Below, in pieces: positions 26,393 to 49,108 of a DNA stretch of 64,000 nt. The number at the start of each line of letters is the position of its first letter. Positions within the stretch are counted from its first letter, which is position 1. Position numbers and translations under genes: made by a program. Origin of the DNA: Solwaraspora sp. WMMD406 (GTDB lineage Bacteria > Actinomycetota > Actinomycetes > Mycobacteriales > Micromonosporaceae); assembly GCF_029626025.1 (NCBI RefSeq), contig NZ_JARUBF010000001.1, positions 4,526,001-4,590,000 on the forward strand. The letters are read 5' to 3'. The notes below the pieces were generated by a model. It made no database searches. It saw only the letters and a list, made by a program, of their open reading frames with translations, and was not told the DNA's origin.

Positions 26393-26936
26393 ACCCTGGC
26401 CCCTACCAGTCGACGTAGCGAAACGCCACGAACGCCAGCGGCATCGACGATCGGTGATCGGCGACTCACGTCACGATGACACCCGTACGAGCTGGCGCGA
26501 CGGCCGGGAATAGCTGCAAAAATAGCAGCATCAGCAATGACGCACGGCAACAGCGATAGCTGTGACCTTCAATTCCCCGGTAGCGCGGCTCGACCAGACA
26601 GTTGTCGAAGCGTTTAGTCATCCGCCGTTCAGGAATGTCGCCAGGTACGGCCACTCGTTTATCGACGGGCCGGCCGAGAGCCTCATCGAGGGGCACGGCA
26701 CGCACTGCGGGCCGCGCCCTGCAGAGCCAGCGGCCGGCACAGATTACAAGAGATCGCCACGTAGTCGGTCGTTTAGTCCAACTCGGACAAAATAATTACG
26801 ACCAGTGCAGAGATTCATGGCAGTCACTCGCAGTCGACCATTGCGATGTCGACCGATATTGATTTAGCTTGGGACGAGCTGACCGCCATACACGGCCAAC
26901 CCGTTGCGAGCGGTGGCATTGGCACGACTGGCAAGG
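26393..26936. other. AT-richer intergenic region upstream of the AfsR-type gene
   Basis: About 540 bases with clearly lower GC than the surroundings, especially 26460-26860. No protein-like frame was found. A nested inverted repeat (GGTCGT 26767-26772 with ACGACC 26798-26803, enclosing GTCC/GGAC) may be regulatory. The region presumably contains the promoter of the AfsR-type regulator; foreign origin is possible but not shown. Confidence 0.5.
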
Positions 26937-29900: not shown

Positions 29901-30104
29901 CACCACCTGGCCGACGACGTATGGGAGCACTGGTGGCAGGCGCTGGCCCACTACAGCGCGATCGGTGCGCCGGAGGCCGACGAGATCCGCGCCCGGCTCA
30001 CCGCCGCCGACCGGCCGGAACCAACCCGGTCGCCGGGCGAACCGGAGCGTGTCGACCACGCGATCGACACGCCGCTGGTCACCGGGCCGGCACCGGGTCG
30101 GTGA
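26937..30104 (+). CDS. AfsR/SARP-family transcriptional regulator with NB-ARC and TPR domains
   Basis: 1055 residues. Residues 1-95 form an OmpR-type winged helix (LRIQVLGQISAWRHGIQLDL, VREAEIRAAVWADR), then the BTAD to about 245 (FRQLVTAAVATQRGGDP... LAEELGVDPGAEL). A Pro-rich linker leads to an NB-ARC with P-loop SGTAGVGKTALAVRWAHRNR near residue 362 and VLDNVASAEQI, and the C-terminus has TPR repeats (GNLGVFHGRQGQYGVAS, GNLGWVHMLEGRYGEAG). This is the domain order of Streptomyces AfsR, an ATP-dependent activator of secondary metabolism genes. GTG 26937 is preferred since it directly precedes the wHTH; earlier in-frame starts add a non-conserved stretch. It ends convergently with the glycosylation operon, overlapping it by 26 bases. 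Confidence 0.9.
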   Translation: MATLRIQVLGQISAWRHGIQLDLGPAAQRAFLGLLAITCGQPVREAEIRAAVWADRRPPPTARNVIQTHVKHLRRLLEPDRRPRTPSTVLRQVGDGYALQLPAAAIDVIRFRQLVTAAVATQRGGDPQHAADQLEQALALWQGPPLADIPVLAGHPKVIALVGERHAALARYGEVMIAAGRAADAIPALEEAAAAQPLDEAAQARLIRACHAAGRRARAFRAYHDVRHRLAEELGVDPGAELTAAHTALLHDEEPQASPGRRVPLPQPPDHRPALPRPGTATAGTAGARPRPLVQHDEQTGTNRRPGSAVAPAPAQLPADIADFTGRTSELKQLDTLLADAYRPAGPTSGDPPAVVISALSGTAGVGKTALAVRWAHRNRDRFPDGQLYVDLQGYDAEQPVSPGQALAGFLRGLGLTGPDLPLDPEERATCYRSLVDGRRMLIVLDNVASAEQIRPLLPGSPSCFVLVTSRDSLAGLVARHGARRIDLDPLPLADAVALIRRLIGARVSAEHAAAARLAAQCARLPLALRVAAEMAATRPGTHLVDLVRELADQHRRLDLLDAGGDRRTGVRAVFSWSYLHLPAAAARAFRLVGLHPGPDVEPYAAAAILGTDLPDARRLLELLARAHLLQRGTDHRYRMHDLLRAYAVDLAQARDADEDRRRAMTALFDHYLCATAAAMDVLYPAERHRRPEVTESTAPVPSTSDAGAARGWLEQERANLVASVVHAAGRGWPEHARRLVLTVFRYLEGAGHYPDAVTVHHHGLHAAQATADRNSEAHMMTNIAVVYGMQGHRPLVADHLRRALALYRQTGERAGEARALGNLGVFHGRQGQYGVASTHLKQALRLLRETGETHGEAMALGNLGWVHMLEGRYGEAGEYLGRAVDLCRRIDHRVGLAFALDSLGQLQARLGRFRDAAEHHGRALAIYRQTSQPVGEASALIGLADALLRVGDPLIARTYYQRALAISAQIGDRAQQARAHAGLARVGHHLADDVWEHWWQALAHYSAIGAPEADEIRARLTAADRPEPTRSPGEPERVDHAIDTPLVTGPAPGR

Positions 30105-31149
30105 CCGCCTCGGATACCGCGCCGGGGGGTGGCGCTGTCGCGCGGATCCGCCGACGATGCAGCACCTGCGCCAGCAGCAGCCCACCGGCACCGATCGCGA
30201 CGTCGCTGAGCACCGAGACCAGTCGGCTGGCCAGCACCACGGTGCTGGCCAGCGGCAGCGGCAGCACGGTGGCGAGGGCGAGGGCGAGCACCGCCTCGCG
30301 GACCCCGATACCGTCCGGCGCGACCATCACCAGCAGGCCGGCGACGGTCGCCAGCGCGAACCCCGCGACGCAGATCAGGTACGACCGGCCGGCCGGGGCG
30401 CCGGCGGTGACCGCCAACAACCAGAGGTGGTGCCCGGAGACGATCCACGACAGCGACTGGGTGACGATCGCCGATCGGATACCACGCGGTGACGCGGACA
30501 CCTCGGGTGCGGGCCGGCGCAGCAGCCGGGCGGCCAGCCGGATCATCCGGTCCAGCAGATCCGGCCGGACGAGCAACGCCACCACCGGCAACGCCGCTGC
30601 GAGCAGCCACCACATCCCGACCCCGGCGACCGAGGGACCCGCAGCGATACCGATGGTCAGACCGGTAAGGGCCACGATGCTCCAGCTCAGCATGAACACC
30701 GACGCCAGCCGGACCGGACCGACGTCGATCGCCTTGCCCATCCGCAGCAGCACCGGTAGGGCGACGAACCGGCCGGGCACGAACTTGACCAGGAATCCGA
30801 CGAAGAAGATCCGGGCGGCGGTCCAGGTGTCCACCCGCGCACCGAGATCCAGGAAGACCGCCCGCCAGGACAACACGCCGAAGACCAGTCCGACACAGTT
30901 GATCGCGAACGCCCCGCCGAGGGCCAGGTACACGGTCGCGGGGTTCAGTGACGCGGTCAGCTCCCGGACCGGTGTCCAGTCCTGGGTCCGCAACACGGTC
31001 ACCAGTCCGGCCGTGAGCAATCCGATGAACAGTACGACGAAGATCCGGTTGACCGCCCCTCGCCACCGTCGCCACCCGGTCGGCGATTCCGGGGTGATCG
31101 GTGGGGTCGGTGGATTCGGCGGGGTCGGCGGGGTCGGCGCTGCGCTCAT
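30079..31149 (-). CDS. LPG-synthase-TM (UPF0104) family integral membrane protein
   Basis: 356 residues, eight or so hydrophobic segments after a Pro-rich cytoplasmic N-terminus. WRAVFLDLGARVDTWTAARIFFVGFLVKFVPGRFVALPV (read as motifs GARVDTW, FLVKFVPGR) and LLVMVAPDGIGVREAVLALAL with PDGIGVRE are typical of the AglD/LPG-synthase TM family; no synthase domain is attached. Members are often found with glycosyltransferases and are thought to help lipid-linked sugar handling or flipping. The ATG at 31149 overlaps the upstream GT2 stop by four bases. It is the last gene of the minus operon. Confidence 0.85.
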   Translation of the reverse strand: MSAAPTPPTPPNPPTPPITPESPTGWRRWRGAVNRIFVVLFIGLLTAGLVTVLRTQDWTPVRELTASLNPATVYLALGGAFAINCVGLVFGVLSWRAVFLDLGARVDTWTAARIFFVGFLVKFVPGRFVALPVLLRMGKAIDVGPVRLASVFMLSWSIVALTGLTIGIAAGPSVAGVGMWWLLAAALPVVALLVRPDLLDRMIRLAARLLRRPAPEVSASPRGIRSAIVTQSLSWIVSGHHLWLLAVTAGAPAGRSYLICVAGFALATVAGLLVMVAPDGIGVREAVLALALATVLPLPLASTVVLASRLVSVLSDVAIGAGGLLLAQVLHRRRIRATAPPPGAVSEAVTDPVPAR

Positions 31150-32210
31150 CGGCCGGCTCCGGCCGGCACCGGATCCGGCCGGCCGTCCCGGGCCGCACGC
31201 GTGACGCCGACCGCCATCCCGGCGAGTTGGGTGGTGTGCATAAGGAAGTGCATCGCGACGAAGTACACCAGGAACCGGTTTCCCTTCCGGCGACGGACGA
31301 ATCGCAGCAGTCCACGGTCGACGTACCCGAAGGTCGCGAACGTGGCGGCCGGTAGCAGGGCCAGCCACCAGGAGAACCCGGCCAGTGGCAGGGTGAGCAG
31401 GGTGAGCCAGCAACTGGTCATCGCCGTCACCGCCGCGACGTCCACTCCGGACGCATTGCCATGATCGGGATCGGCCGGGCCGGCCCGGCGGCGGGGCGCC
31501 CGACGTCGACGTCGACCGGCGACGACGGTGGTGGCGAGCAGGCCGCCGTAGCCGATCGCCCGGCCGACATGTTCCCGCAGGTACGGCCACAGTCTGTCCA
31601 CGTCGTCGTGACGCCCGAGAACCTCCTCGCTCATCCAGATCTCGTAGCCGGCGGGCAGCCGGGTGCCGAACTCGATGTCCTCGGCGTCGCGCAGGTTCTC
31701 GTCGAAGCCACCGACTTGCTCGAAAACGTGCCGGGGAATCGCGGTCAGCGCGAACAGCGTCGCGTCGGCCGGTCCTGCGCCCTGACGCCGCCAGTAGTGC
31801 TCGAACAGGGTCTTGTAGACCTCGACCGGGCCGTCGACGGCGAGCGGCTCGGCGTCGTAGATCCCTTGTACCACTCCGCAACGCGGACGTCGGTCGAGGA
31901 CGGCCAGCGCGTTCGCGATGGCGTCCGGGGCCAGCGCGATGTCCGAGTCGACGAAGAACAGCACGTCGCCCACGGCCGCCGCCGCCCCGGTGTTGCGCGC
32001 GGCGGACACCCCACGATTGGTGGGCAGGGCGATCAGCCGGCAGTGCTGGCCGGCGGCGATCCGCCGGGACTCGTCGGTGCTGGCGTCGTCGACGACGATC
32101 ACCTCGACCGGCTGGTGGGTCTGCGCGTGCACCGCCGCCAGGCAGGCCGCCAGCGTCTTCGCCTTGTTGTGGTTCGGGACGACCACCGAAACGCGGGCAC
32201 CGCCGGTCAC
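31146..32210 (-). CDS. Membrane-associated family 2 glycosyltransferase (GT2-c)
   Basis: 354 residues. The GT-A domain opens with VSVVVPNHNKAKTLAACLAA and has the metal DxD in LFFVDSDIALAPDA and the acceptor-side EDIEFGTRLPAGYEIW with a later HDDVDRLW. Four hydrophobic segments follow from about residue 265. The paralogue at 39122 shares the EDxE, HDD and RLWPxLR patterns, so these two form one subfamily. Probable product is a polyprenyl-phosphate sugar, an inference from membrane association. Translation is coupled at both ends by ATGA overlaps with neighbours. Confidence 0.9.
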   Translation of the reverse strand: MTGGARVSVVVPNHNKAKTLAACLAAVHAQTHQPVEVIVVDDASTDESRRIAAGQHCRLIALPTNRGVSAARNTGAAAAVGDVLFFVDSDIALAPDAIANALAVLDRRPRCGVVQGIYDAEPLAVDGPVEVYKTLFEHYWRRQGAGPADATLFALTAIPRHVFEQVGGFDENLRDAEDIEFGTRLPAGYEIWMSEEVLGRHDDVDRLWPYLREHVGRAIGYGGLLATTVVAGRRRRRAPRRRAGPADPDHGNASGVDVAAVTAMTSCWLTLLTLPLAGFSWWLALLPAATFATFGYVDRGLLRFVRRRKGNRFLVYFVAMHFLMHTTQLAGMAVGVTRAARDGRPDPVPAGAGR

Positions 32211-33352
32211 AGTGAGACCGACACAAGCTGCGGGCGATGGTCGGACATGCTGTCCGGGTCACCGAACTCGTACCGGTGCACGGCCACACCGTCGGAGACC
32301 AGCACCCAGTCCAGCCGCCACAGCGATGTCTGCTCGGTGGGCCAGGACGCCGGATAGAACGACCGGTTGGTGGAGACGGCGTCGCGCAGCTCCGACGGCA
32401 GCCGCCGGGTGTCGCCCATCACCGAGGTCATGTTGAGGTCACCGGCGACCACGATCGGATTGTCGTTGGCGGCGACGTCGTCGGCCAGGACCCGCAGCTG
32501 CGGCAGCCGGCGCTCGCGCTGGTCGCGGATCGTGCGATGGAACTCGGCGCTCCACACGCTCGGACCACCGACCCACACCGGTACCGGCAGGTGCGCGTTG
32601 TAGGTCGACAGCACCCGATCGCCGACCCGCACATCGACTCGCAGTACCTGATACTGCCAGAAGTCGGTGAAGTCGGTTGGCGGCGGCGGGGCGTCCGGGG
32701 CCTCCAGCGGCGTGGACTCGACGATCGGAAACCGGGACAGGGTCACCAGCTCGCCGATCATCGCCACGTGGTAGCCGGGCAGTTCCCGACGCAGCCGGGC
32801 CAGGTCGTCGATCGGCACGAACTCCCCGTCGACCTCCGCCAGGTATTCCTGCAGCAGGTAGACGTCGGCCCGCTGCGCGCGCAGCAGGCGGTAGAAGTCA
32901 TCGGCCCGACCCGGTGGATGCCAGTAACCGGTGTTCCAGGAGACGATCCGCAGCGCGTCAGCCGGCACCTGCCCGGCCCCCCGCAGCGGGCCGGGCAGGT
33001 TGACCCCGGTCATCCCGATCCCGGCCAGCAACGCGGCCGCGCTCAGCAGCGCCGCCGGTCGGCGGGTCCGGCGGCAGCCGGCCGCGGCGGCCGCGAACAG
33101 CACCGGTACGGCCAAGAAGGTGATCGGCGGCAGCAACTCGGCCAGCAGCCACCACCAGACCCGGCCACGCAGCGCCAGGTGGACGAGAACGAACACCAGC
33201 CACAACGCCGAGCCGACCACGAAGATCCGGCCCAACCACCGCCGCCACCACCGACCCCATGGTCCCGGTCCCGCCCCGGCGGCGGGTGCGTCGGCGGCCG
33301 GCTGCCCGGAGGCGTCCGAGCGTCCGTCCAGGACCGGCGGTGGTGCCGTCAT
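32207..33352 (-). CDS. Membrane-anchored endonuclease/exonuclease/phosphatase (EEP) superfamily protein
   Basis: 381 residues. Three N-terminal hydrophobic segments (about 40-125) precede the EEP domain, with the catalytic set visible: IVSWNTGYW (N), VYLLQEYL (E), VVAGDLNMTS (D, N), and SMSDHRPQLVSV (D, H). EEP enzymes cut phosphodiesters in nucleic acids, phospholipids or inositol phosphates. Lying between glycosyltransferases and anchored by a membrane segment, a phosphodiesterase or pyrophosphatase acting on a lipid-linked intermediate is more plausible than a nuclease; that is inference. The ATG at 33352 overlaps the upstream stop by four bases. Confidence 0.88.
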   Translation of the reverse strand: MTAPPPVLDGRSDASGQPAADAPAAGAGPGPWGRWWRRWLGRIFVVGSALWLVFVLVHLALRGRVWWWLLAELLPPITFLAVPVLFAAAAAGCRRTRRPAALLSAAALLAGIGMTGVNLPGPLRGAGQVPADALRIVSWNTGYWHPPGRADDFYRLLRAQRADVYLLQEYLAEVDGEFVPIDDLARLRRELPGYHVAMIGELVTLSRFPIVESTPLEAPDAPPPPTDFTDFWQYQVLRVDVRVGDRVLSTYNAHLPVPVWVGGPSVWSAEFHRTIRDQRERRLPQLRVLADDVAANDNPIVVAGDLNMTSVMGDTRRLPSELRDAVSTNRSFYPASWPTEQTSLWRLDWVLVSDGVAVHRYEFGDPDSMSDHRPQLVSVSL

Positions 33353-34368
33353 GCGGTGACCTCCACGGGAAAGGTGCTGTCGTAGAGCTGCCGGAACGGC
33401 CGCGACAGCAGCCATTGCAGGACACCCACCCCGATCCCGGCGGTGATGGTCACGTTGACCAGGAAGTGCACCGCGACGAAGAACATCAGGAACCGAGCCC
33501 CCCGACGTCGGTAGGCCAGCAGGTACATCTGCTGGTCGACGGCGACCGACCCGGCGACCAACGCCAGCGGCGCGATCAGCCACACCGGACCGAACAGCGC
33601 GGGCAGTGCCGCCGCCGGCAGGGCCGCGGCAGCGGCCAGACTACCCCAGGCGCGCGAGGCGGTCTCGAACCCGGTGGCGAAGCGCCGGGCCCGGGCGTAC
33701 AGCGGAATCCGCAGCCGGGCCCGGTGGAACAGCTTGCGGAGCAACGGCACCAGCTGATGGTCGTGGTCGTGACGGCCCCGGACCCGGGAGGTCAACCGCA
33801 GCTGGTGGCGGCGGGAGATCCGGTAGCCGTAGTCGACCTCCTCGGTCTGCCTCAGCGCCGGGTTGAACGGACCGACCTCGTCGTACACCGTACGGCGGAT
33901 GGCGCACATCGCCGGGAACAGAAACGTCACGTCGCCTTCGCCACTGATCGACCAGTGGTGGTACTGCAGGCCGCGATAGCGGGCCACCAACGTGTCATGC
34001 AACAGCGGTTCCGGGTCCTCGATCCCGCACACCGCACCAATCCGTGGTTCGGCCTCGAGCAGCGCCACCGCCTCGGCGACCGCGTCGGGCGCCATCGCCA
34101 CGTCGGCGTCGAGGAAGAACAAAATCTCACCGGAGGCGTGGGCGACCCCGATGTTACGGGCACGACCGCAGCCGCCGTTGTCCGACAACGCGATCACCCG
34201 TACACCGGCCGCCTCGGCCACCGCCACCGAGTCGTCGGTGCTGTGGTCGTCGACGACCAGCACCTCGATCGCCGGGTAGGTCTGCTCCGCGACGGATCGC
34301 AGGCAGACCGACAACGAGTCGGCGTAGTTGTAGCTCGGCACGATCACCGACACGAGCGGCGTCGACAT
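33349..34368 (-). CDS. Membrane-associated family 2 glycosyltransferase (GT2-b)
   Basis: 339 residues. GT-A core: VSVIVPSYNYADSLSVCLRS, DxD in LFFLDADVAMAPDA, and EEVDYGYRISRRHQ with RGRHDHDHQLVPLLRKL. Four membrane segments follow, ending FFVAVHFLVNVTITAG and FRQLYDS. It is the closest relative of the gene at 34368-35378 (shared HDHDH, Y-G-F/Y-R and terminal FRxLYD), probably a tandem duplication. The ATG overlaps the GT2-a stop by four bases (ATGA). Confidence 0.9.
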   Translation of the reverse strand: MSTPLVSVIVPSYNYADSLSVCLRSVAEQTYPAIEVLVVDDHSTDDSVAVAEAAGVRVIALSDNGGCGRARNIGVAHASGEILFFLDADVAMAPDAVAEAVALLEAEPRIGAVCGIEDPEPLLHDTLVARYRGLQYHHWSISGEGDVTFLFPAMCAIRRTVYDEVGPFNPALRQTEEVDYGYRISRRHQLRLTSRVRGRHDHDHQLVPLLRKLFHRARLRIPLYARARRFATGFETASRAWGSLAAAAALPAAALPALFGPVWLIAPLALVAGSVAVDQQMYLLAYRRRGARFLMFFVAVHFLVNVTITAGIGVGVLQWLLSRPFRQLYDSTFPVEVTA

Positions 34369-35378
34369 CAGAGCGCCTCCGCCGGCTTGTCGTACAGCCG
34401 CCGGAACGCCCGCGAGGTGAGCCAACTGGCCAGCCCGGTGACCGCCGCGACCGCCATCACCACGTTGAGGAGGAAGTGCATGGCGACGAAGTATCCGACG
34501 AACAGCGGGTTGCGTCGGGCGGCGACGAACCGGTACATCGGCCAGTCGCAGCCCAGGTAGCCGACCGCGACGAGTGCCGGCACCAGCGCCCACCACGGCC
34601 CGAACAGCACCGGCAGGACCGTGCTGAGCACCACCGCCAGCGCCGCGACGCTGCTCCAGGCGCGGGGGCCGCTGCGCAGCCCGCCCGGGAAGTCCGGGTT
34701 CGCCGCGTACATCGGGATGTGCAGCATCGTGCGGGTGAACACCTTACGGATCAGCACGCCGAGTTCGTGGTCGTGGTCGTGCACGCCGCGTACCGCCGGG
34801 GTCAGCCAGATCTCGTAGCGGCGCGCCATCCGGAAGCCGTAGTCGGCGTTCTCGGTCTCCCGCAGTCGCGGATTGAATGGCCCGATCTCGGCGAACACCT
34901 CGGCCCGCATCGCCAGCAGGGCGGTGTACATCGTGTGGATCCGCCCCTCGTCGGCGATCAGCCAGTAGGACTGCTGCATACAGCGGTACTCCTCCAGCAG
35001 GCTGTCGCGGATCAGCGGCACCGGGTCGTAGTTGCCGCAGATCGCGCCGATCTCGGGTCGCTCGGTCAGCAGCGTCACCGCGTTGGCCACCGCGTCGGGT
35101 TTGGCGGCCACGTCGGAGTCGACGAAGAACAGGATGTCACCGTTGGCGTTGGCCGCGCCGAGGTTGCGGGCGACCGACGGTCCGCCGTTGACCGGCGTGC
35201 GCACCACCCTTACGCCATAGGACTCAGCGACCGCCACCGAATCGTCGGTGCTGCGGTCGTCCACGACGATGATCTCCATATCGGGGTACGTCTGGGCCCG
35301 CAAGGCGGTCAGGCACAGGCCGAGCGCGCGGGCGTAGTTGTAGTTCGGCACGATGACCGACACGAGTGGTTCAGGCAT
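34368..35378 (-). CDS. Membrane-associated family 2 glycosyltransferase (GT2-a)
   Basis: 336 residues. VSVIVPNYNYARALGLCLTA opens the GT-A domain; LFFVDSDVAAKPDA holds the DxD; ENADYGFRMARRYEIW and RGVHDHDHELGVLIRKVF are acceptor-side motifs. The C-terminal membrane part ends FVAMHFLLNVVMAV and FRRLYDKP. It follows the UbiA-like gene by 35 bases and overlaps GT2-b by one base pattern ATGA. The sugar and acceptor are unknown. Confidence 0.9.
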   Translation of the reverse strand: MPEPLVSVIVPNYNYARALGLCLTALRAQTYPDMEIIVVDDRSTDDSVAVAESYGVRVVRTPVNGGPSVARNLGAANANGDILFFVDSDVAAKPDAVANAVTLLTERPEIGAICGNYDPVPLIRDSLLEEYRCMQQSYWLIADEGRIHTMYTALLAMRAEVFAEIGPFNPRLRETENADYGFRMARRYEIWLTPAVRGVHDHDHELGVLIRKVFTRTMLHIPMYAANPDFPGGLRSGPRAWSSVAALAVVLSTVLPVLFGPWWALVPALVAVGYLGCDWPMYRFVAARRNPLFVGYFVAMHFLLNVVMAVAAVTGLASWLTSRAFRRLYDKPAEAL

Positions 35379-35413
35379 GGGCGGTCCACTTTCGGGTTTC
35401 ACGGCGACGGGTT

Positions 35414-36439
35414 TCACGACGACGGCTGGTGGTGGGCGGCGAACAGAGCGACGCCGACGACCGCCGCCAGCAGGGCGGTGGTCGCGACGATGAACCGGTC
35501 CCGCAGCAGGGTCCGCACCGGGTCGCCGCCGCCCCGACGGACCAGCACCGCCTGCAGGTAACGGGACACCCCGAACAGGGTCAGCGGCACCGCCGCCAGC
35601 AGCAACGCGTTGCGGTACACGCCGACCGGCGCCTCGGACCGCAGGTAGAGCAGGAAGCCGACGACCGCGACGGTCGCGTTCACGGTGAGCAGCTGGTCGA
35701 CCAGGCCGAGGTTGTAGCCGCGCAGGGCCGGCCGGTGCGTCGCGCCGGCGACCGCGAGTTCCTGCCGGCGTTTGCCGAGGATCAGCACCAGGCAGGTGGC
35801 GAAGACCGAGGTCAGCAGCCAGACCGCCACCGGCCCGCCGGTGGCGGCGTAGCCGAGCACGACCCGCAGCACGAAGCCGGCGGCGACGACGCAGATGTCC
35901 AACAGTGGTACGTGTTTGAGCCACCGGCTGTACGCCAGGTTCAGCCCCAGGTAGGCGGCCAGCGGCCACCAGGACATCGCCGGGCCGGCCGTGATCGCCA
36001 GGATCAGCAGCGCTCCGAGCACGGCGGCGAACAGGGCGGCGCCGGCCGGGGAGATCCGGCCGCTGGCGACGGGACGGGCGCGTTTGACCGGATGCCCTCG
36101 GTCCAGTCGTCGGTCGGCGACGTCGTTGACGGCGTACACCAGTGACGAGGCGAGGGTGAACAGCAGCACCGCCCAGCCGATCCGGGCCAGGGTGGTCGCC
36201 GACCAGACCGGGGCGTCGAGCAGCGCGAGCGGTACGGCGAACAGGTTCTTGATCCACTGCCGGGGGCGGGTCAGGGCGACCAGGTCCGCCGTGGCGCGGG
36301 TCAGGTGGCCGGCGAGCCGGGCCACTCGCCCGGACCTCCCGGGCCGGCCGGACCTCCCGGACCTCCCGGGCCGGCCGACGGTAGGTGGTGCCGGGGCGGG
36401 GGCCGGTGTCGGACCGGCCACCACGTCGACAGCGGTCAT
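35414..36439 (-). CDS. UbiA-family prenyltransferase, decaprenyl-phosphate phosphoribosyltransferase-like
   Basis: 341 residues, eight or nine membrane helices. The first Asp-rich motif is NDVADRRLDRGHPVKRARPV, of the NDxxDxxxD type followed by HPxKxxRP as in Mycobacterium DPPR synthase (Rv3806c), and the second lies in HVPLLDICVVAAGFVLRVVL. These two motifs coordinate Mg2+ and the phosphorylated sugar or prenyl chain. I infer transfer of a phosphosugar to polyprenyl phosphate. The short Arg/Gly repeats near residue 25-38 are unusual. ATG 36439 has GAGGAGGTG just upstream. No DprE1-like enzymes are seen nearby. Confidence 0.88.
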   Translation of the reverse strand: MTAVDVVAGPTPAPAPAPPTVGRPGRSGRSGRPGRSGRVARLAGHLTRATADLVALTRPRQWIKNLFAVPLALLDAPVWSATTLARIGWAVLLFTLASSLVYAVNDVADRRLDRGHPVKRARPVASGRISPAGAALFAAVLGALLILAITAGPAMSWWPLAAYLGLNLAYSRWLKHVPLLDICVVAAGFVLRVVLGYAATGGPVAVWLLTSVFATCLVLILGKRRQELAVAGATHRPALRGYNLGLVDQLLTVNATVAVVGFLLYLRSEAPVGVYRNALLLAAVPLTLFGVSRYLQAVLVRRGGGDPVRTLLRDRFIVATTALLAAVVGVALFAAHHQPSS

Positions 36440-36453
36440 GGGCACCTCCTCGG

Positions 36454-37497
36454 CTAGAAGAAGACCTTCGCGGCGCCCAGGACACCCTGGCGCCACGGGT
36501 CGCGGCTGGTACGCCCGTTGCTCGCCGCCACAGCGGGACCGCTCCACCGCGCGCGCCACCAGCGGAAGGTCTCCAGGACCGCGTCCTGGTTGCTGTATCT
36601 GGGGGTGAACCCGAGCCGTCGACCGGCTCGGCCGATGTCGACGTAGGAGTCGGCCATCAGCTTGTGCAGCAGCCGCCCGTACACCGGCGACAACCCGGTA
36701 CGCTCCAGCAGGCCCAGCGCGGCCCGGGCCGGACGGGCCGGTAGCGCCACTACCCGTTTGCCGTGACCGGCGGCGTCGAGCACCGCCTGGAAGTCGTCGC
36801 GGAGGGTGCCGAACTCGGCCGCCCCGATGTTGTACGTGTCGTTCGCCGTGTCGGCCGGGGCGTGCAGCGCGGTGACGACGGCGTCAACCAGATCGGCCAC
36901 GTGCAGCATCTGGATCCGGACGCCGCCGTCACCGAGGACCGGAAAATTGCGCCCTTCGTGCGCCCACTGGAACAGCATGGCGAACAGGCCCATCCGGCCC
37001 GGGCCGAGGAACGTCTTGGGCCGCAGCACCGTCAGGATCAGGTCGTCGTCGCGGTAGCTGACCGCCAGCCGCTCGGCGTCGGCCTTGGCCGTGCTGTAGC
37101 TGTCGACCGGGGCGTACGGATGGTGCTCCGGGGTCGGTACCTGCCGGGGCAGACCGTAGACCGCGGTCGAGGAGATGTAGACCAGCCGGGGAACCTTGGC
37201 GCTGCGGGCCGCGTCGAGCACCGTCCGGCTGCCCTCGACCACGATGGACCGGATCTGGTCGGCCGGGTAGCTGGGCAACGCGGCGGCGCAGTGCACCACC
37301 GCGTCGGCGCCGGCGAACGCCGCCGCGAGGACCGAGGGATCCCGGACGTCACCGATCAGGTGCCGGTAGCCGCTGTCGGCCACCTCGGCCGGTGGCTCGC
37401 GTAGGTCGACTCCGGCGACCGCGACGCCGTCGGATCGCAGCCGGGTCACCACGGCGGAGCCGAGCATGCCGGCGGCCCCGGTGACCGCGATCACCAC
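36454..37497 (-). CDS. NAD-dependent epimerase/dehydratase (extended SDR)
   Basis: 347 residues. Start VIAVTGAAGMLGSAVVTRL holds the GxxGxxG motif; VHCAAALPSY, VYISSTAVYGLP and the catalytic YSTAKADAE follow; LRPKTFLGPGRMGLFAMLF is the typical later segment. It most resembles sugar-nucleotide epimerases or dehydratases. In this operon it would provide an activated sugar for the UbiA-like or GT2 enzymes; substrate unknown. Its GTG start at 37497 lies inside the end of the aminotransferase gene (overlap of seven bases), so the two are coupled. Confidence 0.88.
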   Translation of the reverse strand: MVIAVTGAAGMLGSAVVTRLRSDGVAVAGVDLREPPAEVADSGYRHLIGDVRDPSVLAAAFAGADAVVHCAAALPSYPADQIRSIVVEGSRTVLDAARSAKVPRLVYISSTAVYGLPRQVPTPEHHPYAPVDSYSTAKADAERLAVSYRDDDLILTVLRPKTFLGPGRMGLFAMLFQWAHEGRNFPVLGDGGVRIQMLHVADLVDAVVTALHAPADTANDTYNIGAAEFGTLRDDFQAVLDAAGHGKRVVALPARPARAALGLLERTGLSPVYGRLLHKLMADSYVDIGRAGRRLGFTPRYSNQDAVLETFRWWRARWSGPAVAASNGRTSRDPWRQGVLGAAKVFF

Positions 37498-38906
37498 AGC
37501 GATCCCACCTTCTGCGCGACGAACCGGGTGAGCAGGCGGGTCAGGCCCTGGTCGAGAACGGTCTCCAGGCTGTCGAGGAAGTACTCGACGTCTGTGTCGC
37601 TGGCGACCAGCGGCGGGCCGACCACCAGTGGGCTACGGCCGTTGAGCGTGTAGTAGGTGTAGATGTCATGGTCCCGGTACAGCGCGCTGATCACGGCGGC
37701 GGTGATCAGCTTGGTGCGCAGCAGCGGATCCCGGGCCAGGCCGGCCGGGGCCAGTTTCGCGGCCAGGTCCAGCACCCGGGGTCCGCCGTCGACGAACACA
37801 CCCCACAGGGCCCCCGAACCGGTGACGTCGGCGACCGCCTCGGGATGCTGCTTGGCGATGCGGCGCAGGCCGGGGGCGAGCAGCCGCTCGATCCGCCGGG
37901 CCTGGGCGGGATAGTCGTCGTCGACGGCGATGTTGATCGCTTCGATCGCGGTCGCGCACTCTTCGCCGAACCCGTAGTAGGTGGTGGACGTCGAGTGCAG
38001 CAGGGCGTCGATCGGGCTGTCGTAGGCCCGCCGGAAGACCGGTTCGCGCGCCACGTACGCCGAGATCGACGACTTGCCGCCGCCGAAGGACTTGGAGGTG
38101 GTCAGCACGTCGGGCAGCAGGCCGGGGTAGCGCATGAAGTAGAACAGGCTGCCGGTCTTGCCCCAACCGGTGTAGATCTCGTCGAAGACGAGGACGATGT
38201 TCTGCTCCGTGCACAGTTCGCGTAGTCCGCGCAGGAATTCCTCGGAGCACCACCGCATGGTGGAGGCGCTGAAGGGTTCGATCAGGATGGCGTACACGTC
38301 GTTCGGATGCGCCGCGACCGCCGCCCGGACGGAATCGAGGTCGCCGTAGGAGAACGACACGACGCCGGGAATCCCGGGAAACGCGAAGTGGTTCTGCGCG
38401 CCGCCGGTGAGACTCCCCGATCCGAGCAACTTGCCGTGGAAGCTGATGTCGGCGCGCAGGATCGTGTTGCGCCGACCGCCATGATACTTGTAGGCCAGTT
38501 TGACCGCGCCTTCGACCGCCTCGGCCCCCGAGTTGGGCAGAAAGGACATGTTCAGGTCACCGGGCAGCACCTCGGCGAGATTGTGCGCCAGCGCCGCCAC
38601 GTACGGCGAGAAGTAGGTCTTGTGCACCTCCATCCGCCGCCGCTCCGCGAACCGACGCCGGGCCGCCATGATGCGGGGATGGTTGTGACCGTGGTTGAGG
38701 ACGCCGACGCCGCCGGTGAAGTCGAGCACGCGTCGACCGTCCCGCAGGTACAGGTACGCGCCGTCGGCGTGGTCGACGAGCTCGCGGCCGAAGCCGAAGG
38801 ACGTCATGAGGCCCACCTGGCTACGGTTGACGAACCGCCGGTAGAGGTCGTGCACCTCTTTGACGGACATTCCGTCGCAGTCATCGACGGTGAACAAAGT
38901 CGACAC
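37491..38906 (-). CDS. Class III (ornithine/4-aminobutyrate-type) aminotransferase
   Basis: 471 residues. PLP-fold motifs are complete: SGAEAVEGAVKLAYKYHGG, VLVFDEIYTGWGKTG with the cofactor-binding Asp242, and TTSKSFGGGKSS with Lys272 as the Schiff-base residue. Class III enzymes use amino donors such as glutamate to aminate aldehydes or ketones, including keto-sugars. Here it starts the minus operon; amination of a sugar or prenyl intermediate is a reasonable inference but a non-sugar amine cannot be ruled out. The GTG at 38906 has GGAGAAAGG upstream. Confidence 0.9.
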   Translation of the reverse strand: MSTLFTVDDCDGMSVKEVHDLYRRFVNRSQVGLMTSFGFGRELVDHADGAYLYLRDGRRVLDFTGGVGVLNHGHNHPRIMAARRRFAERRRMEVHKTYFSPYVAALAHNLAEVLPGDLNMSFLPNSGAEAVEGAVKLAYKYHGGRRNTILRADISFHGKLLGSGSLTGGAQNHFAFPGIPGVVSFSYGDLDSVRAAVAAHPNDVYAILIEPFSASTMRWCSEEFLRGLRELCTEQNIVLVFDEIYTGWGKTGSLFYFMRYPGLLPDVLTTSKSFGGGKSSISAYVAREPVFRRAYDSPIDALLHSTSTTYYGFGEECATAIEAINIAVDDDYPAQARRIERLLAPGLRRIAKQHPEAVADVTGSGALWGVFVDGGPRVLDLAAKLAPAGLARDPLLRTKLITAAVISALYRDHDIYTYYTLNGRSPLVVGPPLVASDTDVEYFLDSLETVLDQGLTRLLTRFVAQKVGSLW

Positions 38907-39053
38907 GCATCGACCCTTTCTCCAGAGCGATCGGAATGAGCTGGATCATCGATCCACGGATCTCCTGCCGCGAGTCGTTGAAATTGTGCCGGAACCGGTT
39001 GGACACGAACTGGATGGCGACTGAAGTACGACTGGACGTCTGTCAATGTCCAC

Positions 39054-39082
39054 TTGCCGGTTGAGGCGAATGTGGCTACCGT
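39054..39082 (+). promoter_or_regulatory. Candidate promoter of the plus operon
   Basis: TTGCCG (39054-39059) and TACCGT (39077-39082) are spaced by 17 bases, fitting the TTGnnn-17-TAnnnT actinobacterial housekeeping pattern; the expected transcript start is about 30 bases before GTG 39122. Its weight is limited because such motifs are frequent by chance. Confidence 0.4.
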
Positions 39083-39121
39083 CTCGCACAGCTAGGGACG
39101 GGGAACTCTCGTGCCACACCC

Positions 39122-40144
39122 GTGATCGACAAGGTGGTGTCCGTGCTCCCGGACGTATCCGTCGTCATTCCCGCCTACAACAGCGACCGCACGCTCCGCG
39201 CCTGCCTGTCGGCGGTCTTCGCCCAGACACACCCCCCGGTCGAGGTGATCGTGGTCGACGACGCCAGCACCGACCAGACTCGTGAGGTCGCCCGGCGGTT
39301 CCCGGTCACCCTGCTCGGCACACCGGTGAACCGGGGGCCCGCCGCCGCCCGCAACCGGGGTATCCAGGCCAGTCGCGGCGAGGTGATCTTCTTCGTCGAC
39401 GCCGACTGCGCGCCCTCGCCGGACGCCGTCGCCGCCGCGCTGCGGGTGCTGACCGAGACGCCCGACGTCGACTGTGTACACGGGATCTACCTGACCGAGC
39501 CGCTCTACGACGACGGCCCGATCGAGGCGTACCGGCTGCTGCACGCCCACTACTGGCGAATGCGCAACACGGGTCGGGTCCGGACGGCGATCTTCGCCCT
39601 CTGCGCGGTCCGCCGCTCGGTCTTCGACGACGTGGGCGTGTTCGACGAGAACCTCCGCGCGTCGGAGGACGTCGAACTCAGCGACCGGATCGCCGCCCGG
39701 CACGGCATCTGGCTGTCCCCCGAGGTGACCTGTCGGCACGACGACGACAGCCGGCTCTGGCCGATGCTGCGCAAGCAGTTCGGCCGCTCACAGCTGCTGG
39801 TACCGGTCGCGGTCCGCGAACGCGGGCCGGCCGGGCTGCGCGCAAACCGGCCCGCCGGGGTCCTGGCCACCGCCGTCGCGGTCGCCACGCTTCCGCTGGC
39901 GGCGCTGACCCCGGTGCTGCTCGCCCTGCCGGTGCTGGCCGTCGCCGGGTTCGCCCTGGCGGATCCGGGGCTCGCCGGCTTCGTACGCCGGGAACGCGGC
40001 CTGGCGTTCCTCTGCTTCTTCCTCGCCGTCCACTTCCTGGTCCACCTGGCGATCGTCGGCGGAGCCGCCATCGGCGGGCTGCGGTTCCTCGTCGACCGCG
40101 ACTTCGGTCCGAGCCGCGAGCTGGCGGTCGGGGCGGGCCGGTGA
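39122..40144 (+). CDS. Membrane-associated family 2 glycosyltransferase (GT2-d)
   Basis: 340 residues. VSVVIPAYNSDRTLRACLSA, DxD in IFFVDADCAPSPDA, and EDVELSDRIAARHGIWLS with HDDDSRLWPMLRKQFG are present; membrane segments follow, ending FFLAVHFLVHLAIVGG. Its paralogue in the opposite operon is the GT2 at 31146. It begins the plus operon and is coupled to the deacetylase by a GTGA overlap. It probably makes a polyprenyl-phosphate sugar that the deacetylase and GT-C enzyme use. Confidence 0.9.
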   Translation: MIDKVVSVLPDVSVVIPAYNSDRTLRACLSAVFAQTHPPVEVIVVDDASTDQTREVARRFPVTLLGTPVNRGPAAARNRGIQASRGEVIFFVDADCAPSPDAVAAALRVLTETPDVDCVHGIYLTEPLYDDGPIEAYRLLHAHYWRMRNTGRVRTAIFALCAVRRSVFDDVGVFDENLRASEDVELSDRIAARHGIWLSPEVTCRHDDDSRLWPMLRKQFGRSQLLVPVAVRERGPAGLRANRPAGVLATAVAVATLPLAALTPVLLALPVLAVAGFALADPGLAGFVRRERGLAFLCFFLAVHFLVHLAIVGGAAIGGLRFLVDRDFGPSRELAVGAGR

Positions 40145-40851
40145 ACGCCGTACCACGGCTGCGGGCGCGGGCGCTGGAGGCCGCGTTCCTCGGCGTACGG
40201 ACCTACCACCGACTTCGGCCGACGACCCCTGCGGGGCGCGGCGGTCGGCCCGTCTTCCGGGTCGCCCCCGGCACCATCGCCCTCACCATCGACGACGGCC
40301 CCGATCCCCGGTGGACACCGGCCGTGCTCGACCTGCTCGCCGCCCACGGCGTACCGGCGACCTTCTTCCTGATCGGCGACCGGGTCGCCGAACACCCGGC
40401 CCTGGCCCGACGGATCGCCGACGCCGGACACGAGATCGGCAACCACTCGATGCGCCACCCGATGCCGTTCGCGGCCCTGCCCAGCGGCCTGATCAACGCC
40501 GAGATCGGTCAAGCCCAGCGGCGCATCACCGACGCCACCGGCACCGCGCCCCGGCTGTTCCGGGCACCCAGCGGCGGCTGGTCCGCCAACGTGCTGGCGG
40601 CGACCGCCGACGCCGGTCTGACCCCCGTCGACTGGACGGTCAACTCCAGCGACTGGAAGGAGCCCGGGGTCGGCCGCGTCACCCGGGCCCTGGCCCGCAG
40701 CGGCTCCGGACACGTCCTGCTCTGCCACGACGGTGGCGGCGACCGCTCGCAGACGGTGGCCGCGCTGTCCGTGGTTATTCCCCGGTTGCTGCGCCGTGGG
40801 CTCCGGTTCGTCGCGGTACCCGCGCACCCCGCCGCCGGTCGGGAAACGTGA
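40141..40851 (+). CDS. CE4 (NodB-type) polysaccharide deacetylase
   Basis: 236 residues. CE4 motifs are complete: IALTIDDGPDPRW (catalytic and metal Asp), HEIGNHSMRHP (H-S-x-x-H metal site), RLFRAPSGGWS, VDWTVNSSDWKE and VLLCHDGGGDRSQTV. Family members remove N-acetyl groups from GlcNAc, peptidoglycan or lipid-linked amino sugars. There is no clear signal peptide; a hydrophobic-poor N-terminus suggests action on a cytoplasmic-face lipid-linked substrate, in line with its GT2 and GT-C neighbours. Its stop overlaps the methyltransferase start as TGATG. Confidence 0.9.
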   Translation: MNAVPRLRARALEAAFLGVRTYHRLRPTTPAGRGGRPVFRVAPGTIALTIDDGPDPRWTPAVLDLLAAHGVPATFFLIGDRVAEHPALARRIADAGHEIGNHSMRHPMPFAALPSGLINAEIGQAQRRITDATGTAPRLFRAPSGGWSANVLAATADAGLTPVDWTVNSSDWKEPGVGRVTRALARSGSGHVLLCHDGGGDRSQTVAALSVVIPRLLRRGLRFVAVPAHPAAGRET

Positions 40852-41492
40852 TGCCACGTCCGGCGTTGCACCTGGCCGCTCGGGTGGTCAACTGGCCGCT
40901 GACGGTGTTGATCCGGCCCTATCCTCGGCTGAACGCGCTCGTGTGGGACCTGCAGTACGCGCTCGGTCTGTGGCGCTATCTCGACACCTCCCCGGACAGC
41001 GGGCCGCTGGATCTGGTCCGCCGTCACGTTCCGTACCCCAGGATCCTGGATCTGGGCTGCGGAACCACGGCGAACCTCGCGCTGCCCCCGGGGCGGTACC
41101 GCCACTACCACGGGGTGGACATCAGCCGGGCGGCGATCCGTCGCGCCAGGTCGTTGCGCCGCCCCGACGCCACCTTCGAGGTCGCCGACGTGCTGCGCTA
41201 CCGAGGCACCGAGACGTACGACGCGATCCTGTTCCGCGAGGTGCTGTACTACTTCCCGCCGGACCAGGCGGTCGGGCTGCTGCTACGGGCCGCCGGCATG
41301 CTCCGCCCCGGCGGCCGGATCCTGATCTGGGTCTACGACACGTCCAGCCCCACCAGTCAGGAACTGGTCGCCCGGATCCGGGACTGTGGGCTGGTCGTCC
41401 ACGAGGAGTCGATCGACAGCGTGGCGCGGCGCCCGGCGATGACGGTCGTCCTCGGCGTACCCGGTCCCAGTCCCGCCGGGTTCGCGTCGTGA
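40851..41492 (+). CDS. SAM-dependent methyltransferase
   Basis: 213 residues. A long N-terminal helical part (residues 1-65) precedes motif I RILDLGCGTTANLALPPG, then VDISRAAIRRARSL, and a later FREVLYYFPPDQAV, matching class I Rossmann methyltransferases. The gene overlaps the deacetylase stop by one base and the GT87 start by four, so it is part of the operon. The target could be a sugar hydroxyl or the lipid carrier; no specificity signature is visible. Confidence 0.88.
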   Translation: MPRPALHLAARVVNWPLTVLIRPYPRLNALVWDLQYALGLWRYLDTSPDSGPLDLVRRHVPYPRILDLGCGTTANLALPPGRYRHYHGVDISRAAIRRARSLRRPDATFEVADVLRYRGTETYDAILFREVLYYFPPDQAVGLLLRAAGMLRPGGRILIWVYDTSSPTSQELVARIRDCGLVVHEESIDSVARRPAMTVVLGVPGPSPAGFAS

Positions 41493-42715
41493 CCGATCAG
41501 GTGACCCGCGCCCGGATCGCCGGCGGACAGTGGATCGAGCCGGCGGTCGTGCTCGCCGTGGCGACGGCGGCCGGCACCCTCGCCGCGGCGGTCTACCAGC
41601 TGACCGGGCTGTTCTGGGGCGATCTGGCCACCTATCGGGCCGGCGCAGAGGCTGCCGGCCTCGGCGACGGGCACCTCTACCAGGCCGCCTACCGGGGCAC
41701 CGACGGCATCGCACTCGGCTTCACCTATCCACCGTTCGCCGCGTTGCTGCTGCGACCGCTGGCCGCTGTCGGGATGCCGGTGGCGATCGCCGGCTGGACC
41801 CTGCTCAGCGTCGTGGCGTTGGTCGCGGTGATCCGGCTGGTGGTCCGCGAAACGGGTGTCCCGCGTCGACTGTCCACCCGGTGGACCGTGCTCTCCACCG
41901 TCGCCGCGCTGCCCGTCTTCGCGGTCTCCGGGCACCTGCAGGTCGGTCAGGTGGGGCTGCTGCTGATGTGGCTAGTCCTGGTCGACCTGCTCGCCGGACG
42001 GAACAGCCGGTGGTACGGAGTCGGCGTCGGTCTGGCCGCCGGCGTCAAGCTCACCCCGCTCATTTTCATCGGCTATCTGGTGCTGACCGGCCGATGGCGG
42101 GCGGCGGCCACCGCCCTGGCCACCTTCGCCGCGACCGTCGGCGTCGGGTTCGCCTGGCGATCAGCGGACTCCGCCTGGTTCTGGGGCGGCGGCCTGTTCG
42201 ACACCGCCCGGGTCACCGCGGACCCGCGTACGGTGCTGAATCAGTCGTTGGCCGGCGCGGTGGCCCGCATCGACGACGTGGGCGAGTCGGGACCGGTCTG
42301 GCTGGCCTGCGCCGGGGTGGTCGCCGTCGCCGGGATGGCGCTCGCGGTCTGGGCCAGCCGGGCCGGATCCGAGCTGGTGGCGGTGCTCGTCTGCGCCGGC
42401 ACCGGGCTGTTGGTCTCCCCTGTCTCCTGGCATCACCACTGGGTCTGGTGGGTACCGACACTGGTCGCGCTCGCCGTGGCCTGCTGGCGAGCGCGACACC
42501 GGGGCGGGGCCGTCGCGCTCAGCGTCGTCTGGCTCACCCTGGTGGGCAGCACCGGTTGGGTGTTGGCCAGCCCCGGCGGGTGGGACCTGCACTTCACCGG
42601 GGCGGGCCTGGTCTACAGCAACCTGTACGTGCTGCTGGCGCTGGCCGGGTTCGGCGTGGCGGCGTGGTTGCTGCACGACGGCCGGGCTGCACGACGGCCG
42701 GGCGCCTCGCCGTGA
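41489..42715 (+). CDS. GT87-like GT-C glycosyltransferase (polyprenyl-phosphate-sugar dependent)
   Basis: 408 residues, 10-12 membrane helices. LTGLFWGDLATYRAGAEAAG with the acidic residues near the end of the first outer loop and FTYPPFAALLLRPLA are characteristic of the GT87/PimE-like family, as is the late SPVSWHHHWVWWVPT. GT-C enzymes use polyprenyl-phosphate sugars to glycosylate extracytoplasmic acceptors. It is the final gene of the plus operon; its GTG start overlaps the methyltransferase stop (GTGA). Confidence 0.9.
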   Translation: MTDQVTRARIAGGQWIEPAVVLAVATAAGTLAAAVYQLTGLFWGDLATYRAGAEAAGLGDGHLYQAAYRGTDGIALGFTYPPFAALLLRPLAAVGMPVAIAGWTLLSVVALVAVIRLVVRETGVPRRLSTRWTVLSTVAALPVFAVSGHLQVGQVGLLLMWLVLVDLLAGRNSRWYGVGVGLAAGVKLTPLIFIGYLVLTGRWRAAATALATFAATVGVGFAWRSADSAWFWGGGLFDTARVTADPRTVLNQSLAGAVARIDDVGESGPVWLACAGVVAVAGMALAVWASRAGSELVAVLVCAGTGLLVSPVSWHHHWVWWVPTLVALAVACWRARHRGGAVALSVVWLTLVGSTGWVLASPGGWDLHFTGAGLVYSNLYVLLALAGFGVAAWLLHDGRAARRPGASP

Positions 42716-45230: not shown

Positions 45231-45268
45231 CTGGGTATCAGCGCTTTCCTCGGTCGAGCAGGTGCTGC

Positions 45269-47326: not shown

Positions 47327-47535
47327 CGCGTCGAACTCCCCGGTGCCGGCAGGTGGGCCACGCCCGGTGGCAGGCGGGACCACACGGCGACCCGCAGGTC
47401 ACCGCCCGGAGAGCCTAGCTGCCGCGACCGACACCATGACGCCGACCTAGCGAACGGCAACGGCCGGTGTCGACGCCGATTCCGATCGGGCCGGCGGGTA
47501 CGCGGCCCCGATGGCGCGGTGGTCTCCGCACGTGG

Positions 47536-47599: not shown

Positions 47600-49108
<1,509 letters not shown>

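Follow-up and report, generated by a model that had tools for sequence, protein, structure and literature searches.

A SARP-linked actinomycete gene cassette that may assemble an aminopentose-containing glycan on polyprenyl phosphate

We analysed a 64,000-nucleotide stretch of the Solwaraspora sp. WMMD406 genome (contig NZ_JARUBF010000001.1; hereafter the window), in which 12 genes at 30079-42715 form two divergent and mostly overlapping operons, as delineated by Pfam and a listing of open reading frames (ORFs) and start codons. The minus-strand operon represents one form of a cassette found more widely in actinomycetes, whose conserved unit comprises a class III aminotransferase, a short-chain dehydrogenase/reductase (SDR), a UbiA-family enzyme, family 2 glycosyltransferases (GT2), an endonuclease/exonuclease/phosphatase (EEP) family hydrolase and an LPG_synthase_TM membrane protein; the carbohydrate esterase family 4 (CE4) deacetylase, the methyltransferase and the GT87 enzyme of the plus-strand operon are add-ons. 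In our reading, to which we give an even chance of being right, this is a biosynthetic cluster under SARP control, from an actinomycete family that is widespread yet patchy, and it would make a polyprenyl-linked glycan, primed by phosphoribosyl pyrophosphate (PRPP) and containing an aminopentose, which is then flipped and processed outside.

The 12 gene families listed in a preliminary description of this DNA were borne out by Pfam, and codon-position GC content supported a coding ORF at each of the 12 places. The minus-strand operon runs from 38906 down to 30079 and encodes the class III aminotransferase, dependent on pyridoxal phosphate (PLP; 37491-38906), an extended SDR of the NAD epimerase/dehydratase family (36454-37497), UbiA (35414-36445, with its start at 36439 or 36445), the glycosyltransferases GT2a (34368-35378) and GT2b (33349-34368), the EEP hydrolase (Exo_endo_phos; 32207-33352), GT2c (31146-32210) and the LPG_synthase_TM (PF03706) protein (30079-31149; Pfam 38.9 bits, cut-off 33.4). 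The plus-strand operon (39122 to 42715) encodes GT2d (39122-40144), the CE4 deacetylase (40141-40851), a class I S-adenosylmethionine-dependent methyltransferase (40851-41492) and the GT87 glycosyltransferase of the GT-C type (41489-42715). The tight coupling of nearly all genes by 1-7 bases, also described previously, was found again: judged by the listed start codons, genes overlap by 1-7 bases at five of the seven minus-strand junctions and by 1-4 bases at all three plus-strand junctions. UbiA and the SDR are separated by 8 or 14 bases, and the junction between GT2a and UbiA is either a 35-base gap (ATG at 35378) or a 4-base overlap (GTG at 35417). An AfsR/SARP-type regulator gene (26904-30104, plus strand) and promoter repeats at 38997-39036 also belong to the locus.

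Conservation of gene order had been proposed as a check on the preliminary description, and the order is indeed kept well outside the strain. All 12 genes are present in 7/7 genomes of the genus, and their order, together with the SARP-type regulator and a gyrA-like neighbour, is kept in all six of the other genomes, where the aminotransferase orthologues are 89-90% identical. Aminotransferase copies of 75-77% identity occur elsewhere in the strain's own genome (L032) and in genomes G004 and G005, each of which carries the cassette three times. Presence is patchy: six of a sample of 394 genomes of the class carry the cassette, counting the strain's own. Scanning of named genomes gave 178 pattern matches, of which 149 encode an aminotransferase relative, and the best 80 of these 149 loci were kept. 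These 80 come from Salinispora, Micromonospora, Plantactinospora, Phytohabitans, Actinoplanes, Streptomyces, Kitasatospora, Nonomuraea, Herbidospora, Actinosynnema, Amycolatopsis, Kibdelosporangium and others. Among the best 80, homologues of the window aminotransferase and SDR are present in every locus, always adjoining on the same strand, followed by GT2 (78), UbiA (76), LPG_synthase_TM (76) and EEP (74), and the six core families are complete in 69. Nine of the 11 loci without the full set lie on short or cut contigs, L072 and L117 being the other two; L117 has a GT4 gene in place of GT2. Homologues of the BTAD-type regulator occur in 33 of the 80 loci, and those of CE4, the methyltransferase and GT87, on which the preliminary description had leaned, in 13, 11 and 9. 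An aldo-keto reductase, which is not among the 12 window genes, accompanies 49 loci.

Some cassette copies have exporter genes of the major facilitator superfamily (MFS) or the MMPL family beside them. A gene family shared by 12 Streptomyces loci adjoins the aldo-keto reductase where the cassette ends; its L086 member (L086:16749-18896) is an MMPL-family transporter, which suggests a lipid-like product. Upstream of the cassette, three loci share a further gene family (L090:7114-8187, L115:6340-7410 and L116:7230-8300), whose L090 member is an ArgC-like semialdehyde dehydrogenase. The record of a Nonomuraea gerenzanensis plasmid holds no annotation in the matching stretch.

The entry onto the lipid carrier is indicated by UbiA. 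The preliminary description had called this enzyme similar to decaprenyl-phosphate 5-phosphoribose (DPPR) synthase, and NCBIfam scores and a match to PDB 8j8j (E 6.6e-31) confirmed the subfamily: UbiA reached up to 165 bits against decaprenyl-phosphate phosphoribosyltransferase models and 164 bits against PRK08238 (cut-off 351), and at most 45 bits against other UbiA families. The report on the 8j8j enzyme assigns PRPP, magnesium or pyrophosphate roles to its residues (PMC10994848, Nature Microbiology). The equivalents of Lys28, Tyr70, Asn73, Asp77, Tyr138, Lys143 and Lys208 are identical in 73/73 cassette homologues (73 of 75 UbiA sequences were used). Two positions have changed in all 73. 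The Gln135 equivalent, by which they differ from the mycobacterial enzyme, is Asn (55) or Ser (18), and Gln135 is kept in four of six UbiA proteins of relatives without an SDR; the Tyr157 equivalent is Phe, a change that the same report also records in some mycobacteria (PMC10994848). Going by these residues, UbiA is most likely the enzyme that loads sugar on polyprenyl phosphate, and entry into the lipid-linked stage is likely to occur by its phosphoribosyl transfer and not by a GT2 enzyme.

With the Rv3806c/UbiA pathway to decaprenylphosphoryl arabinose (DPA) in mycobacteria, the window shares the UbiA subfamily, the PRPP-site residues and a presumed first product, polyprenyl-phosphoribose. 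A PRPP-dependent UbiA-type phosphoribosyltransferase is present as far as sequence can tell, with seven PRPP-site residues kept and the Gln135 and Tyr157 positions changed. The window differs in having a class III aminotransferase together with its SDR and in lacking DprE1: this FAD oxidase is not among the 12 genes (Pfam), and no ORF of the genome reaches the DprE1 model, three ORFs with an ALO domain scoring 93, 69 and 56 bits (cut-off 500). Because there is no DprE1, we rejected a canonical arabinan (DPA) locus. To our knowledge, polyprenyl-phosphate pentoses derived from PRPP are known solely as donors for arabinan-type glycans.

The occurrence of UbiA, the SDR and the aminotransferase across 61 relatives, compared by coordinates with aminotransferase orthologues defined at E below 1e-200, is nested. 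We found 18 aminotransferases, 20 SDRs and 21 UbiA genes near an SDR or aminotransferase; UbiA accompanies all 18 aminotransferases and the SDR 17 of them, and UbiA lies within 4 kb of 20/20 SDRs. Three SDR-UbiA pairs occur without such an aminotransferase (in G007, in G015 and as a third copy in the own genome), and six further UbiA genes (179-197 bits) have no SDR at the same threshold. This is the pattern expected if UbiA acts first, the SDR on the UbiA product and the aminotransferase last; it is a correlation, not proof of reaction order. The third copy in the own genome (L126, C1:2763000-2782900) has its SDR-UbiA pair without a class III aminotransferase, together with GT4, GT2, EEP, LPG_synthase_TM and a BTAD regulator, and the G015 locus (L137) has a similar layout. 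A search with the SDR placed 30 of 33 matching genomes outside the class. SDR homologues in loci L128-L132, L134 and L135, also outside the class, are 42-47% identical and adjoin other genes, with no UbiA; that of L129 lies beside zwf/opcA and 6-phosphogluconate dehydrogenase genes. These seven fetched loci, from another class of the phylum, contain no other cassette gene and are not members of the cassette family.

Both enzymes expected to act after UbiA appear catalytically intact. The aminotransferase matches PF00202 (class III) at 207.7 bits, with a weak PF00155 match besides, and the PLP lysine and aspartate are intact in 82/82 aminotransferase-like proteins of the 80 loci, which include a distant second one each in L058 and L078. 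The YxxxK motif is intact in all 79 SDRs surveyed, 42 of which entered a separate alignment. The predicted SDR model (mean predicted local distance difference test, pLDDT, 88.4) is nearest in fold to GalE-type and other UDP-sugar epimerases. Both proteins have conserved C-terminal tails, with Trp471 kept in 80 of 82 aminotransferases (the other two have gaps) and Phe347 in 79/79 SDRs; these tails, of which that of the SDR is low-confidence in the model, could be membrane or partner contacts. Class III includes HpnO and sugar-aldehyde transaminases. In the hopanoid side-chain pathway, HpnO acts on ribosylhopane, a precedent for an aminotransferase working on ribose bound to an isoprenoid lipid (PMC12583986). 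The window differs in that the ribose is expected on a phosphodiester, supplied from PRPP by UbiA, and in the 87 bits that its SDR reaches with the HpnA model (cut-off 368).

The GalE-like model, and a paralogous locus (L033) that carries a second epimerase/dehydratase and a UDP-glucose/GDP-mannose dehydrogenase, mean that the SDR and aminotransferase could act on nucleotide sugars. We consider it possible but rather unlikely that they make a cytosolic nucleotide-linked amino sugar, which a GT2 enzyme adds to a polyprenyl-phosphoribose primer so that the amine sits on a later sugar. The four window GT2 enzymes do need donors; however, no nucleotidyltransferase is found among the window genes (Pfam), a UbiA gene stands within 4 kb of every SDR copy in the relatives, and the Trp471 and Phe347 tails could be contacts with the membrane, although the aminotransferase of L037 is without the Trp.

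By hydropathy, the four GT2 proteins have hydrophobic stretches C-terminal to the catalytic domain, one in GT2c and two in GT2a, GT2b and GT2d. A tree of GT2 sequences from 25 of the 80 loci, representing Micromonosporaceae, Streptomycetaceae, Streptosporangiaceae and Pseudonocardiaceae (sequences were cut to 340 residues, and the fused ORFs of L040 and L041 are misplaced), separated group I, with GT2a and GT2b, mostly beside UbiA, from group II, with GT2c and GT2d, often beside LPG_synthase_TM. In NCBIfam the four enzymes are closer to MftF and EpsD (under both cut-offs) than to enzymes charging polyprenyl phosphate: they scored 91-121 bits against MftF (GT2d 121; cut-off 280), and GT2a, GT2b, GT2c and GT2d scored 20.6, 34.2, 27.3 and 22.9 bits against the ArnC model PRK10714 (cut-off 529) and 31.5, 28.8, 24.6 and 36.5 bits against PpgS (cut-off 370). 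On the latter scores (24.6-36.5 bits) a PpgS/galactosamine system was rejected. In one locus a GT2 and an LPG_synthase_TM domain share a single ORF (L029:4737-6584), the latter half scoring 25.6 bits, short of the 33.4-bit cut-off.

At its N-terminus the EEP protein carries three hydrophobic stretches, as do 57 of 113 copies, and in 50 of these 57 the positive-inside rule predicts the EEP domain to lie outside. Its AlphaFold2 model (pLDDT 92.8) matches in fold TDP2, neutral sphingomyelinase and other EEP enzymes, including a mannosyl-6-phosphatase, so that phosphodiester cleavage and phosphate removal are both possible; a sequence search of the PDB with the protein gave two chance-level matches and nothing more. 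A separate EEP alignment covered 46 of 111 homologues. VanJ-type membrane EEP hydrolases are similar in layout, with their domain behind N-terminal membrane helices and predicted outside.

In the plus-strand operon, the CE4 protein has eight NCBIfam matches, to NodB (159 bits, cut-off 240), PdaB (150 bits, cut-off 237), peptidoglycan deacetylase/PgdA-type and other CE4 models, all under cut-off and none named ArnD. It shows no clear signal peptide by hydropathy and looks cytoplasmic; with NodB as best match, a role as peptidoglycan deacetylase is not favoured. The GT87 protein (Pfam 160.8 bits) matches PimE-like PDB 9dm5 (E 1.6e-29) and scores 198 bits against PRK13375 (PimE; cut-off 413). The preliminary description had allowed that matches of CE4 and GT2 members to families with assigned roles would speak against it, and this happened in part: CE4 falls to NodB first and then to PdaB and peptidoglycan deacetylases, all under cut-offs, and GT87 lies nearest the mannosyltransferase PimE. 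GT2d and CE4 stay adjacent throughout the window sub-type, suggesting that an N-acetyl sugar is added and then deacetylated. The methyltransferase scores 22.5 bits against NodS, under the cut-off of 24, and a Nod-factor-like chain, in which GT2, CE4 and methyltransferase would correspond to NodC, NodB and NodS, remains a hint for that reason.

The regulator matches Trans_reg_C (28.6 bits, cut-off 26.2) and BTAD (120 bits, cut-off 22.1), followed by NB-ARC and TPR domains (Pfam), and is kept beside the cassette in 6/6 other genus genomes; its start is uncertain, TTG 26904 being required for the DNA-binding domain to be included. The intergenic region 38907-39121 holds four direct repeats (38997-39036), the heptamers GGTTGGA, AACTGGA, GACTGAA and GACTGGA at an 11-bp period, which form the sole chain of at least three units on either strand of the 64-kb window. 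Chains of three to five units occur in the window, in the six other genus loci and in three of three Salinispora loci. In a motif-free test of 14 stretches (200 shuffles each), the window promoter was equalled by 0/200 shuffles; for two other stretches of the window the figures were 200 and 179. An earlier repeat test gave 0/300, with a motif picked after alignment and shuffles keeping base content only. SARP operators follow an 8-base rule for the spacing from heptamer to -10 box, and on the minus strand a spacing of 8 bases separates the last heptamer from CACAAT, which may be a -10 box. The operators of the SARP PimR are heptamers with 4-bp spacers, and SARP-LAL antibiotic clusters (PimR/pimM) resemble the window in their linked SARP-type regulator and promoter heptamers at an 11-bp period (PMC5930380); they differ in the heptamer, and the 12 window genes include no polyketide or peptide synthase. 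The linked regulator and the repeats, a putative operator, suggest control as in antibiotic clusters.

A specialised product would fit the patchy occurrence and the exporter genes (MFS or MMPL) that adjoin some copies, and the cluster probably makes an amino-oligosaccharide or glycolipid of this specialised kind in place of a general wall polymer. That the product is instead a structural wall or envelope glycan, such as an aminosugar-decorated arabinan-like or mannan-like polymer, seems unlikely to us. Retention of the 12 genes throughout the genus would suit such a polymer, as would the nearness of GT87 to PimE, which makes envelope glycolipids; the SARP regulator with its SARP-like operator, the exporters, the 6 of 394 genomes in the class and the threefold presence in G004 and G005 would not.

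The preliminary description had likened the locus to the Arn (4-amino-arabinose) and Francisella Nax/Flm systems, with which it does share the general logic of an amino sugar linked to polyprenyl phosphate, a deacetylase and a GT-C enzyme. The outline of a polyprenyl-linked aminosugar pathway stands, with a step that would form the amine, a CE4 that looks cytoplasmic and an enzyme of the GT-C type, but the likeness to Arn/Nax does not. Three of four features are absent: the locus has no DegT/DnrJ-type aminotransferase (ArnB) but the class III PF00202 (Pfam), no ArnC/FlmF1-type enzyme by score among its four GT2s (21-34 bits for ArnC, cut-off 529, and 25-37 bits for PpgS, cut-off 370; NCBIfam) and no ArnT/NaxT-type GT-C, which would be a GT83 enzyme, but GT87 alone (Pfam). 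For the fourth, an ArnD-type deacylase, a CE4 domain is present with no match named ArnD; UbiA, EEP and LPG_synthase_TM are extra. We therefore rejected Arn/Nax membership. An Arn/Nax-like route, with a GT2 enzyme producing a polyprenyl-phospho-N-acyl sugar, CE4 removing the acyl group and GT87 passing on the resulting amino sugar, is improbable. In its favour, GT2d, CE4, the methyltransferase and GT87 share an operon of overlapping genes, no clear signal peptide is seen in CE4, and GT2a, GT2b and GT2d have the two C-terminal hydrophobic stretches of ArnC-type enzymes. Against it, GT2d scores 23 bits with ArnC (cut-off 529) and 36.5 with PpgS (cut-off 370) compared with 121 with MftF (cut-off 280), and CE4 goes to NodB and PdaB, under cut-off, with none of its eight matches to ArnD.

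From the observed gene content, synteny, nesting, catalytic residues and promoter repeats we infer the aminopentose and the product along the following route. UbiA would move 5-phosphoribose from PRPP onto polyprenyl phosphate, a step strongly indicated by its residues. The 5-phosphate would be lost from the lipid-linked ribose, the SDR, a putative oxidase of lipid-linked pentose, would oxidise one hydroxyl, and the aminotransferase would convert the carbonyl to an amine, giving polyprenyl-phospho-aminopentose; we guess at C5 for the amine because class III aminotransferases often act on terminal aldehydes. Membrane-anchored GT2 enzymes would add more sugars at the inner leaflet, among them, in the window sub-type, an N-acetylated sugar from GT2d that CE4 may deacetylate and the methyltransferase may methylate. 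LPG_synthase_TM, a putative lipid-linked sugar flippase by its family and its fusion to GT2, would flip the glycolipid. On the outer side, GT87 may attach a sugar taken from a polyprenyl-phosphate donor, and EEP, to judge by its topology, would cleave a phosphate ester in the lipid-linked glycan to release or trim it.

Several observations weigh against this route. UbiA stays under the NCBIfam equivalog cut-off (165 versus 207 bits), no cytoplasmic enzyme for the 5-phosphate was identified, and by its model the SDR is a generic, GalE-like sugar-nucleotide SDR, as the additional sugar-nucleotide genes of L033 would also fit. L072, an uncut locus (1/80), has the aminotransferase and SDR with no UbiA found, and L037 is an aminotransferase-UbiA locus without the SDR. 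The topology of EEP was predicted from hydropathy, with two helices only in 41 of 113 copies, and some have altered catalytic residues, the D371 equivalent being Asp in 83 of the 112 copies surveyed (of 113). The promoter repeats are weaker elsewhere: eight other sub-type loci (L040, L041, L049, L050, L051, L060, L064 and L095) have two units in six cases and one in two, with no chain of three or more, and among 11 other cassette promoters in the motif-free test, L049 was equalled by 3 of 200 shuffles, L117 by 12, L027 by 20, L029 by 24 and the other seven by at least 107.

Beyond the cluster, a gyrA/gyrB-like pair at 42747-47383 (minus strand), scoring under the gyrase equivalog cut-offs, is perhaps topoisomerase IV or a second gyrase. 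At 49618-54217 (plus strand) a KAS III-like gene, a fused alpha/beta-hydrolase and AMP-ligase gene and a 331-aa ORF follow one another, which may represent an OleA-OleBC-OleD olefin or beta-lactone set. Ordinary neighbours are a GH10 xylanase with CBM2 (47600-49051, minus strand) and a Spo0M gene (25341-26336, plus strand).

Literature searches, judged from result listings and short on subscription papers, returned no description of such a cluster. More tentatively, and with some doubt, we propose that a class of specialised metabolites not recognised before in actinomycetes is made by the cassette: amino-oligosaccharides built on polyprenyl phosphate, whose first, PRPP-derived pentose would be oxidised and transaminated on the lipid, and which would then be flipped and set free outside by the membrane EEP hydrolase, with sub-types arising by swapping of GT2/GT4, CE4, methyltransferase, aldo-keto reductase and exporter genes. 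If so, a conserved unit that joins a transaminase to the PRPP-polyprenyl entry reaction would open a new way to amino sugars, and the cassette would give genome mining a new handle beyond its customary targets of polyketides, peptides and aminoglycosides. The gene set is common to many soil and marine actinomycetes, and what it makes may be a type of bacterial sugar product overlooked so far.

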